Positions 6,147 to 10,600 of a DNA stretch of 35,725 bases are shown piece by piece. The position numbers were made by a program, and so were the translations under genes. Under the pieces are notes generated by a model. It saw only the letters and a program-made list of their open reading frames with translations, was not told the origin of the DNA and ran no database searches. Every line of letters starts with the position of its first letter. Within the stretch, counting starts at the first letter, position 1. Source of the DNA: Nitrososphaeria archaeon (lineage in GTDB: Archaea > Thermoproteota > Nitrososphaeria > JACIWG01); assembly GCA_026413865.1 (NCBI GenBank), contig JAOAKB010000006.1, forward strand, positions 1 to 35,725, read 5' to 3'.

Positions 6147-8276
6147 TTATCCAGTTCCAACAAGTTTTACTCCGGTGATAGTTGAAACTTCTAAGGTTAG
6201 AGCTCTTAAATCATCTTTCTCCAAATTTTTGACATGCGTTTTTCCTGACAACTGTGTAAGCATTTTAAGTTCCTCGATGACAGTGGAAAGGTAATTTTCA
6301 ATTCTTTCTGAAGATTCGTCTATCTTTAACCTTTTTCTTAATAGTGGGTCCTGTGTTGCTATTCCCTTAGGACATTTTCCAGTACTACATAATCCACATA
6401 TCTTACATCCCATGGCAACAAGAACTGAAGTTGCCATTGCAACGGCATCAGCGCCTAATGCAATAGCTTTAGCGACATCAGCGCCACTTCTAATTCCCCC
6501 AGATATTATGAGGTTAACTTCATCTCTTAATCCTATTTCCTTTAAAGCCCTATCTGCTTCAACGAGTGCTGGTAGTGTTGGTAAGCCTGCATGCTCTAGT
6601 ATGATGTCTGGTGCAGCTCCTGTTCCACCTTGTTTTCCATCCACAACAATAATATCTGCCCCAGCCTTCGCAGCTATCTTAACATCATCATAAACTCTTC
6701 CAGCCGAATATTTTACTATTATAGGAACCTTCCAGTCCGTTATCTCTCTTAACTGTTCTATTTTCATTTTTAAATCTTCGGGTCCAACTATATCTAAGTG
6801 TCTTGCTGGGCTTACTGCATCTGTTCCAACAGGTATTCCTCTTACTGCAGCTATCTCAGCAGTAACCTTTTCACCCATCAATAGTCCACCTTGGCCTGCC
6901 TTTGCACCTTGTCCAATCTTTATTTCGATAGCGTCTGCGGTCTGAAGGTTTCTTGCATTAATTCCGAATCTTCCTGAAGCATACTGTGCTATAAGTGTTG
7001 CAGCGTTCTCTCTTTCTTCTGGAATTATTCCTCCTTCTCCCGTGTTCACTGCTATACCTAATCTTGTTGCAGCTTTTGCTATAGCAATTTTTGCCTCCCT
7101 GCTTATTGCTCCAAATGACATAGCACCAACTATTATTGGAGCCTTTAGCTTTAGAGGCTTTTCAGCATACCTTCCTCCTAAAACAACTTCTGTATCACAG
7201 GGTTCCCTATAATGGTCTATTGGTGGTCTTGATGTTTGTGCACATAATATTATTAGATCATCGAAGCTTGGAAAACTTCTCCAAGCACTTGTACCCCTAA
7301 CTACAGGTTTTCCAAGTAACGCCTTAACCTGTATTTCTCTTATAATACTATGTTTCCATAAAAGTTTATCGTCGTCTGCTATCGGATAGATTTTTATGGC
7401 CTTAACCGGGCAAAATTCAATACATGTTTCACATCCGAGACAGTCTTGGTCATTTAATGGGCTAACATAATCTTCTCTAACCTTTTTGAAGACTTCTTGA
7501 GGACATACTTTTATGCATGTGCCACAGCTTTTGCAAATGTTATGGTCCAAAACTACTTGATATCTTACCTTACTCTTAGCTATGTTCTCTTTTAGAGCCT
7601 TTTTTGGACTATAGAATGGCCTTTTGCTTTTTGGAATAATCTTCCTTATCCTCCCAAAATATTTTGGTAGTCCATTATTTTCTAATATTGTGTTAATGTG
7701 TAATGTTTCCTCTTCTGTTACTTCTTCTACTATAGCATTCTTTCCAAGACTCGGCTCAGGGCCTGTGAAAAAAATTTTTCCACCTATTATCGATTCTCCA
7801 GTATAATCTCCAGCCTTTCCAAGTATAATTATTTCTCCTCCCATCATATACAATCCACTCATAATTCCAGTATTTCCCATTACAACTAGTATCCCATTCT
7901 TCATTAACGCACCTATTCTATCACCACAGTCTTTTTTTACTATAATTTCTCCTCCATATATTCCCTGTCCAACACCATTTCCTGCATCACCTTCAATAAC
8001 TATCTTACCTTTTGTCATATTGTCTCCTGTAAACCATCCAGAGTTTCCTTCAACTCTTATTTTTGGTCCTTCAACCATAGTTGCTAGAAAGTATCCTACT
8101 GAACCCCTTATTTCTATATCAACCTCCCTAGTTAATCCTGCTGCAATGTGATGTTTGCCGTTTGGATTCTCTAAAACTATCCTTCTAAAAGAATTTGATA
8201 GCCTTTTTATTTCGACATTTAATTCTCTCAAACTATACTTTTCTGCATCTACAATTATCAATTCTTCTTCCAGCAT
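6147..8276 (-). CDS. gltB: Glutamate synthase, GXGXG - ferredoxin - FMN domain fusion
   Basis: This 709-residue synthase core makes glutamate from 2-oxoglutarate and ammonia delivered by the GATase. Domain order: residues 1-205 are the GXGXG beta-helix (many G-x-x-x-G turns); about 240-295 is a 2x[4Fe-4S] ferredoxin domain with Cys 248, 251, 254, 258 and 279, 282, 285, 289; about 320-700 is the FMN-binding TIM barrel with KQGGTGAAP (548-556). The [3Fe-4S] cysteines are C624, C630 and C635, spaced C-x5-C-x4-C as in bacterial GltB, with an extra C627. Bacterial GltB runs GATase-central-FMN-GXGXG, so here GXGXG has moved to the front. No NADPH subunit gene is nearby, so ferredoxin is the likely reductant. 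The start overlaps the GATase gene by 19 bases. Confidence 0.93.
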   Translation of the reverse strand: MLEEELIIVDAEKYSLRELNVEIKRLSNSFRRIVLENPNGKHHIAAGLTREVDIEIRGSVGYFLATMVEGPKIRVEGNSGWFTGDNMTKGKIVIEGDAGNGVGQGIYGGEIIVKKDCGDRIGALMKNGILVVMGNTGIMSGLYMMGGEIIILGKAGDYTGESIIGGKIFFTGPEPSLGKNAIVEEVTEEETLHINTILENNGLPKYFGRIRKIIPKSKRPFYSPKKALKENIAKSKVRYQVVLDHNICKSCGTCIKVCPQEVFKKVREDYVSPLNDQDCLGCETCIEFCPVKAIKIYPIADDDKLLWKHSIIREIQVKALLGKPVVRGTSAWRSFPSFDDLIILCAQTSRPPIDHYREPCDTEVVLGGRYAEKPLKLKAPIIVGAMSFGAISREAKIAIAKAATRLGIAVNTGEGGIIPEERENAATLIAQYASGRFGINARNLQTADAIEIKIGQGAKAGQGGLLMGEKVTAEIAAVRGIPVGTDAVSPARHLDIVGPEDLKMKIEQLREITDWKVPIIVKYSAGRVYDDVKIAAKAGADIIVVDGKQGGTGAAPDIILEHAGLPTLPALVEADRALKEIGLRDEVNLIISGGIRSGADVAKAIALGADAVAMATSVLVAMGCKICGLCSTGKCPKGIATQDPLLRKRLKIDESSERIENYLSTVIEELKMLTQLSGKTHVKNLEKDDLRALTLEVSTITGVKLVGTG

Positions 8277-9169
8277 ACGACTTCACCAGGTCTTAGTCCT
8301 CTTATTCTCCCACTGTTTCCGAATATTCTTAATGCACTTTCTTCTGAAGCTGCAGCATTCAACTTTTCTCCCTCATAAATTAGTAGTGGTCTTAGTCCAA
8401 GCTTGTCCCTTACCATACCCACTGAATCTGATGTTGAAATTATATATGAAAATGGGCCATCTAATTCTTTTACTGAAGTTTTTAAAGTTTCTTGCAAGCT
8501 TAATCCTTTTTTCAGCATTTCAACAACATAGTGTACTATAAGTTCTGAATCGTTTTCTGTCTCAAATGTTGCTCCCTCTCTTTCAAGTTTTTCTCTGACC
8601 TTCCAATAGTTTGTTATTTGGCCATTGTGTACTAATGCTATGTCAGGATATTTTAGAGACTGAAATGGATGTGCATGGAATATGTCTACGCCACTTTCTG
8701 TAGAAAACCTTACATGCCCTAACCCATGTGTACCATGCATTTCTGAAATTCTAAAGTTTCTTTCCAATTCTTCGGCAACTCCTATATCTTTTATTATCTC
8801 CATCTTTTTCCCTATGCTTATCACTTTCGCCAAGCCTGTAGAATTTACTTTCTCAACAATATCCTTTAACCTATCTTCTGAAGTTCTTACAATATATTTG
8901 TCGAATCCAAATCCTCTTAATGTGTTTATTTTTATGCTTCTAATGTCTGCTCCAGCTGTAGCAAGGGCTGTAGAAATCTTACTTAAGGCTCCAACAACAT
9001 CCTTTGTAAAAACTTTGATAATATATTCATCCCATTGTACACTTTCTCTACCATATATTGCTACTCCAGCAGAATCTTTTCCTCTATGCTGAAGATTTTG
9101 CATCATTATAATCAAATATCTTCCAACAGGTCCTTCTTCGTCAAGGAAGATACATGCTATGCCACAGAT
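8258..9169 (-). CDS. gltB1: Glutamate synthase glutaminase (GATase II) subunit with ACT-like insertion and ATC start
   Basis: This class II glutamine amidotransferase releases ammonia for the synthase next door. Motifs are CGIA (nucleophile Cys), QHRGKDSAG, GHVRFST, HPF, LVHNGQI, TENDSE, ELDGPFSY and DKLGLRPL. The catalytic Cys (codon 9166-9164) must sit at the N-terminus. In this frame the codon before it is ATC, then AAA, TGT, GGA, GGT and a TGA stop. No ATG, GTG or TTG exists upstream, and the first ordinary start (TTG at 9115) would discard the Cys. A GAGGTGG Shine-Dalgarno at 9183-9177 lies 7 bases before the ATC, so I propose ATC initiation (303 residues). A one-base error turning ATG-AAA into ATG-T-AAA is the main alternative. 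Residues about 48-119 look like an inserted ACT domain. It lies in the glnA operon. Confidence 0.85.
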   Translation of the reverse strand: MCGIACIFLDEEGPVGRYLIIMMQNLQHRGKDSAGVAIYGRESVQWDEYIIKVFTKDVVGALSKISTALATAGADIRSIKINTLRGFGFDKYIVRTSEDRLKDIVEKVNSTGLAKVISIGKKMEIIKDIGVAEELERNFRISEMHGTHGLGHVRFSTESGVDIFHAHPFQSLKYPDIALVHNGQITNYWKVREKLEREGATFETENDSELIVHYVVEMLKKGLSLQETLKTSVKELDGPFSYIISTSDSVGMVRDKLGLRPLLIYEGEKLNAAASEESALRIFGNSGRIRGLRPGEVVCWKKN

Positions 9170-9176
9170 TTTACAT

Positions 9177-9183
9177 CCACCTC
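9177..9183 (-). promoter_or_regulatory. Shine-Dalgarno ahead of the unusual GATase start
   Basis: GAGGTGG on the minus strand lies between the glnA stop and the GATase frame. It is 7 bases from the ATC that precedes the catalytic Cys. It directly abuts an ATG-TAA (9176-9171), which is both too close and immediately terminated, so that ATG cannot be the start. Confidence 0.6.
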
Positions 9184-9187
9184 ATCC

Positions 9188-10549
9188 TTACAATCTTCTT
9201 ATGTATCTTTCAATCTCCCAATCAGTGACTTGAGTTCTATATAAGTCCCACTCTCTTCTTTTAATATGCAGATAATTATGGAAAAGGGTTTCACCCAAAG
9301 CCTCTTTCATGAAATCACTGTTCTCCATTAAATCAAGTGCTTCCTTCAACGACTCTGGCAGTGATACAATGTTTCTTGCTTTTCTTTCTTCATAACTTAG
9401 CTTGTAGACATTAAGTTCTGTCGGTTCTCCTGGATCCATTTTTTTCTTTACTCCTTCAAGTCCAGCTAAACAAAGGACTGCGAACTGAATGTATGGGTTT
9501 CCAGCAGGGTCTGGGCATCTTATCTCACATCTTGCAGCATTCTTTCTTCCACCAAAGTTTGGCACTCTTATTAATGGTGACCTGTTTTTGAAGGCCCAGG
9601 CAACGTAAACTGGCGCCTCATATCCTGGAACCAGTCTTTTGTAAGAGTTTGGCCATGAAGCTAGGACTGCACACATTTCTCTTCCAAAATGAAGTTGTCC
9701 TCCTATAAAGTATCTTGCTGTATCTGATAGAAAGTCTGTTGAAGGGTCTTCTGAATAAAAAAGGTTTTCCGTTCTATCTATATTCCATAAACTTTGGTGC
9801 ACATGCATTCCTGAACCGTTGACACCATAGAATGGTTTCGGCATATATGTTGCTATATAACCGTTTTTTGCTGCAACAATTTTTGTAACCATCTTCATTG
9901 TTATTGTCCTGTCAGCGGTTTCGAGTGCCTCGTCAAATTTAAAGTCTATCTCATTTTGTCCAAGTGCAACCTCATGGTGTGCTATCTCTATTTCTATACC
10001 GAAGCATTCCGCCATGTCTGCTATTTCACGCCTAATCCAATCTGTTAGATCGCCTGGATGATAGTCAAAGTATCCTGCCATATCAATGGGCTTAGGTTTA
10101 CCTTCATCACTCTCTTTTAGCAGAAAGAATTCGAGCTCAGGTGCGCACATATACTTCATGCCATATTCTTCGCATTTTTTTAACGCTCTTTCTAGAACAT
10201 ATCTTGGGTCTCCCTCAAATCTTTTATCTTCTGGTGTGTAAACGTCACAGATCATTCTACCTGACGCTTTTTCTTGGGGCCTCCATGGTATTTCTGAAAA
10301 TGTTGATGGGTCTGGATACAGTACCATATCTGATTCTTCTATTGGCCTAAATCCTGTTATAGACGAACCGTCAAATGATTGACCATGTTCAAGTATACTT
10401 TCTATGTTTTTTGAATTGACTTGAAGACTTTTAAGTATTCCGTTGATGTCAGTGAATTGAAGTTTTATAAACTTGATGTTTTTGTCTCTTACTTCTTGCA
10501 CAACCTCTGTAACTTTTTCTTTCCATACTGGATCTTTAAAGTGACGCAT
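9188..10549 (-). CDS. glnA: Glutamine synthetase type I
   Basis: This dodecameric enzyme joins ammonia and glutamate using ATP. The product has about 453 residues, normal for the family. Motifs are KLQFTDINGILKS (beta-grasp domain), FDGSSITGF, the metal-binding APELEFFL, NGSGMHVHQSL, KRLVPGYEAPV, NRSPLIRVP and ARCEIRCPDP. The tail has NVYKL, with a Tyr near where bacterial enzymes are adenylylated, but no adenylyltransferase is present here. The start is uncertain: ATG at 10549 gives the usual N-terminus. In-frame GTG at 10561 and TTG at 10582 would add 4 and 11 residues; the TTG overlaps a GGAGGT site (10580-10575) and is unlikely. The gene heads an operon with the two glutamate synthase genes, 18 bases before the proposed GATase start. 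A TATA box lies at about 10592-10600. Confidence 0.95.
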   Translation of the reverse strand: MRHFKDPVWKEKVTEVVQEVRDKNIKFIKLQFTDINGILKSLQVNSKNIESILEHGQSFDGSSITGFRPIEESDMVLYPDPSTFSEIPWRPQEKASGRMICDVYTPEDKRFEGDPRYVLERALKKCEEYGMKYMCAPELEFFLLKESDEGKPKPIDMAGYFDYHPGDLTDWIRREIADMAECFGIEIEIAHHEVALGQNEIDFKFDEALETADRTITMKMVTKIVAAKNGYIATYMPKPFYGVNGSGMHVHQSLWNIDRTENLFYSEDPSTDFLSDTARYFIGGQLHFGREMCAVLASWPNSYKRLVPGYEAPVYVAWAFKNRSPLIRVPNFGGRKNAARCEIRCPDPAGNPYIQFAVLCLAGLEGVKKKMDPGEPTELNVYKLSYEERKARNIVSLPESLKEALDLMENSDFMKEALGETLFHNYLHIKRREWDLYRTQVTDWEIERYIRRL

Positions 10550-10574
10550 ACAACTCGCCACTATATGGGCTAAT

Positions 10575-10600
10575 ACCTCCAATATTATATCTTATAAAGT
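10575..10600 (-). promoter_or_regulatory. glnA promoter region: TATA box and GGAGGT
   Basis: On the minus strand CTTTATAAG (10599-10591) is a good archaeal TATA box. Transcription is expected near 10570-10575, only 10-25 bases ahead of the candidate GTG (10561) and ATG (10549) starts. GGAGGT at 10580-10575 would lie at the very 5' end of the message or just outside it. Confidence 0.5.

Follow-up and report, generated by a model that had tools for sequence, protein, structure and literature searches.

An archaeal glutamate synthase amidotransferase subunit with a probable AUC start codon that recurs across genera

The stretch of DNA analysed here (the window; 35,725 nucleotides of contig JAOAKB010000006.1 from the Nitrososphaeria archaeon assembly GCA_026413865.1) encodes on its minus strand a gltB-type glutamine amidotransferase subunit (that is, a class II/Ntn GATase with an inserted ACT domain; positions 8258–9169 from AUC to stop). 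Upstream of it lies glnA for glutamine synthetase (9188–10582, minus strand), whose TAA (9190–9188) ends about 20 nt 5′ of the ATC, and directly 3′, with a 19-nt overlap, lies the gene for the glutamate synthase FMN domain with Fer4 and GXGXG (6147–8276, minus strand); a PF01645 (FMN domain) gene occupies this 3′ position in relatives as well. The glnA–gltB setting and the intact GATase motifs described in an initial annotation of this DNA were both recovered: the reading frame runs uninterrupted through 302 codons from the cysteine to the stop, matches GATase_6, GATase_7 and ACT (PF13522 and PF13537 above the gathering cut-off) and keeps all of the invariant GATase positions. The ACT domain is inserted near the N terminus (residues 48–109), which suggests that the enzyme is under amino-acid control.

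In class II amidotransferases, removal of the methionine exposes an N-terminal cysteine nucleophile. The corresponding residue of the GATase subunit, Cys1, is invariant in 24 aligned orthologues and directly follows the proposed start codon. On the minus strand of the window, positions 9193–9155 read TTG TAA GGA TGA GGT GGA TGT AAA ATC TGT GGC ATA GCA, in which the ATC (9169–9167) adjoins the cysteine codon (9166–9164) and an in-frame TGA five codons further 5′ (9184–9182) limits the possible start region; no ATG, GTG or TTG stands in frame between this TGA and the ATC. The Shine–Dalgarno sequence GAGGTGG (9183–9177) is located 7 nt from the ATC, and an out-of-frame ATG (9176–9174) is directly followed by TAA. 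The initial annotation had described this arrangement and proposed that the ATC is the start codon, and its account of the letters, including the Shine–Dalgarno spacing, matches the sequence base for base.

The first canonical start codon in frame is a TTG (9115–9113, minus strand) inside the conserved coding sequence and, as the initial annotation anticipated, it is the codon that an ORF caller would choose, at the cost of the first 17 residues and thus of the nucleophile. Although its being canonical speaks for translation from this TTG, which would yield a GATase without its nucleophile, we consider such a start very unlikely, given that Cys1-Gly2-Ile3 and Gly15 all lie N-terminal to it and are invariant in the 24 aligned orthologues, and that the Shine–Dalgarno spacing fits the ATC instead. 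Between the window genome (G000) and its relative G001, dN/dS is 0.08/1.46, and codons 1–17, which precede the TTG, carry 7 synonymous and 2 non-synonymous differences. In three other pairs the same codons are not synonymous-dominated (6/6, 1/6 and 4/6 synonymous/non-synonymous), so that for these pairs the argument rests more on the invariant Cys-Gly-Ile.

Orthologues were collected from GTDB species genomes and related whole genomes, and the codons at the 5′ end of each were read one by one. ATC occurs at exactly the start position in eight species of five genera, three families and two classes: four species of family f1 (the window genome, G001 (L003/L032), G003 (L005/L041) and G004 (L004)), two of family f78 (G591 and G601; L036 and L038) and two of Methanomethylicota (L033, that is, G229, and L034, that is, G119). 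The GATase of the three f1 relatives is 86% (G001), 83% (G003) and 72% (G004) identical to that of the window, and those of the distant ATC species are 59–62% identical to it. In none of the eight species is there an in-frame ATG, GTG or TTG from the upstream stop to the cysteine, and in two of them the intervening stretch is just three codons long (GGA-AGA-ATC in G004 and AGG-AAA-ATC in L036), which leaves ATC as the sole plausible start there. Among 94 distinct orthologues the codon at the start position is ATG in 66, TTG in 14, GTG in 6 and ATC in 8, and nothing else. With ATC at the identical position in seven further species, a chance reading is excluded.

The initial annotation had set against the ATC start a single-base insertion behind an original ATG with a three-residue leader, the result of a sequencing error or a recent pseudogene. 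An ATG is indeed present at 9176–9174, where a one-base change brings it into frame. The eight genomes with ATC all come from uncultured archaea and are either MAGs or fragmented assemblies. However, comparison of the 5′ ends with relatives gave ATC and no version one base shorter; the seven other species carry ATC behind differing upstream sequence, so that the lesion is not unique to one assembly; the ATG is not kept in the other ATC genes, and the proposed leader is found in no orthologue. Together with the strong purifying selection and the intact invariant positions, this leads us to reject an insertion or pseudogene as extremely improbable. On the evidence of these alignments, the ATC before Cys1 is a kept feature and not a sequencing error.

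A 49-row maximum-likelihood tree requires four changes between ATC and canonical labels, at least three of which are forced by well-supported branches, and a single Methanomethylicota genus contains ATC (G229), ATG (G103 and G133) and GTG (G147). The tree and this mixed genus argue that ATC and canonical starts have replaced one another repeatedly, as would be expected of a functional start codon, and the ATG and GTG of such near relatives show that ATC is not indispensable. Translational coupling to glnA was considered as a general reason for the ATC and rejected, given that the f78 and Methanomethylicota ATC genes are not located behind glnA.

The ATC genes also differ from their ATG counterparts in the strength of Shine–Dalgarno pairing. 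The 20 nt upstream of each start were paired to the anti-Shine–Dalgarno sequence, the 3′ end of 16S rRNA in the relative G004 being GGATCACCTCCTT. The GAGGTGG duplex of the window reaches −10.3 kcal/mol, and the mean is −10.2 kcal/mol for the eight ATC genes versus about −5.6 kcal/mol for fourteen related ATG genes (Mann–Whitney P = 0.0005, with shared ancestry ignored). The proposal of the initial annotation is thereby extended: the ATC is shared by species of several genera and of two classes, and it goes with stronger Shine–Dalgarno pairing.

Ribosomes might instead initiate out of frame upstream and reach the GATase frame by programmed frameshifting, and an out-of-frame ATG does lie upstream in the window, G001, G004, L036 and L038. 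Its position and frame nevertheless vary by species, the ATG of the window runs directly into TAA, and L034 has no ATG, GTG or TTG in any frame within the 45 nt before the cysteine. As neither an upstream start nor a slippery site is common to the species, we regard frameshifting as a very remote explanation. Similarly, a special initiator tRNA (for example, one with anticodon GAU) could read AUC at initiation, as might be suspected from ATC being the sole near-cognate codon at the start position, where ATT and ATA do not occur. Yet the initiator-type tRNA of G004 carries CAU, and a pattern search for the GAU form of the initiator stem-loop found none in G004 and the examined part of G000, both surveyed incompletely, which renders a dedicated tRNA highly unlikely too.

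We therefore favour translation of this archaeal GATase subunit from AUC, read by the usual initiator tRNA with anticodon CAU and followed by removal of the methionine, and assign this reading, which is drawn from comparative sequence data, a probability of about 0.88. The strong Shine–Dalgarno sequence would position the 30S subunit such that Met-tRNAi (CAU) pairs with AUC despite a third-position mismatch; AUC would thus be decoded as methionine, and methionine aminopeptidase would remove this residue to expose the N-terminal cysteine nucleophile. In archaea, aIF1 discriminates against initiation at non-canonical codons (PMC6237735), so AUC should reduce the yield. Through its weak codon the GATase may in this way be synthesised at a lower level than glutamine synthetase and the synthase subunit, which are encoded in the same operon, and we infer a possible regulatory role of the AUC start on this basis.

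How general non-canonical starts are in this lineage was surveyed with 377 non-overlapping orthologue pairs between pieces of G000 (0.58 Mb, about 40% of that genome) and G004 (1.37 Mb). In 365 pairs both frames were closed; in 109 pairs the canonical codons did not align, and these stand outside the verdict. Among the 365 usable pairs, a canonical start was found to be lacking only in gltB, in carA (candidate ACG) and in one gene of G004 (ATA); for the gltB GATase and carA the homologous region extends, in G000 and G004 alike, 5′ of every canonical start for lack of a start codon. A lineage-wide habit of starting at ATC was rejected, gltB being the only ATC case among the usable pairs, and glmS, which encodes another class II GATase, starts with ATG-Cys in both G000 and G004. 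The G004 gene is methionine-synthase-like (contig C10, about position 409,340, plus strand) and has ATA, preceded by GAGGTGG, where G000 has ATG; it is a candidate AUA start in one species.

For carA, three species of two genera (G000, G003 and G004) have no in-frame ATG, GTG or TTG before the conserved N terminus (L257/L226, L256 and L161:3819–4988, respectively). In all three, GGGAGAGGGTTYACG stands just 5′ of this N terminus and below a conserved TATA-like box, which makes the ACG, located after the conserved GGGAGAGGGTTY, a candidate start. Separately, carA of G000 (L257/L226, contig C14) has an in-frame TAG where G004 has a glutamine codon, possibly a disruption, a strain variant or an assembly error; this internal stop is absent from G003 and G004.

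As a side observation, a gene resembling those for tail assembly chaperones (PHROG 344, weak match with E = 0.0045) was seen in four genomes (L263 in G004, L264 in G000, L265 in G002 and L266 in G001), and in each of them its reading frame shifts at a conserved GCTAAAAAAAAAGTTAGA, by a +1/−2 frameshift or by slippage on A9. Phage tail chaperones are likewise frameshifted, and the gene suggests a provirus or an injection-like element in this archaeal family.

Start codons in archaea are given as AUG, GUG and UUG in a review of archaeal initiation (PMC7531240), and the one archaeal AUC start that our search of the open-licence literature returned is that of ribosomal protein L12ae of Staphylothermus marinus (Smar_1096), proposed from alignment (PMC2678158). 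That gene resembles the GATase gene in being archaeal, in lacking a valid start codon and in having an alignment that points to ATC; however, it encodes a ribosomal protein and concerns one gene in one genome, whereas the GATase gene is metabolic and its ATC is found in eight species of several genera with recurrent gain or loss. Other archaeal split glutamate synthase GATase subunits are the same protein with the same start position beside Cys1, but use ATG, TTG or GTG.

The classical conserved near-cognate start codon is the AUU of bacterial infC, which encodes IF3. Like infC, the GATase gene has a conserved near-cognate start with presumably weak, Shine–Dalgarno-led initiation, its codon being kept across species with no canonical in-frame alternative upstream of the conserved coding sequence. 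The infC gene, however, belongs to bacteria, starts at AUU and is regulated by the very protein that it encodes, whereas the GATase gene is archaeal and probably starts at AUC. By analogy with IF3 and infC, near-cognate starts could serve this archaeal family as a nitrogen-control device in which the stringency of start selection by aIF1 sets the expression of both glutamine amidotransferase subunits without a canonical start, the gltB GATase (AUC) and carA (candidate ACG), an idea that we consider unlikely.

An archaeal metabolic gene whose AUC start is conserved and recurrent appears, within the open-licence literature, to be undescribed. Gene callers restricted to ATG, GTG and TTG would cut the catalytic residue from such enzymes. 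Instances of initiation at AUC are rare in nature, and this probable one can serve to examine how well archaeal initiation factors accept a mismatch at the third position. As a single genus holds both ATG and ATC versions, the influence of the start codon is directly testable.
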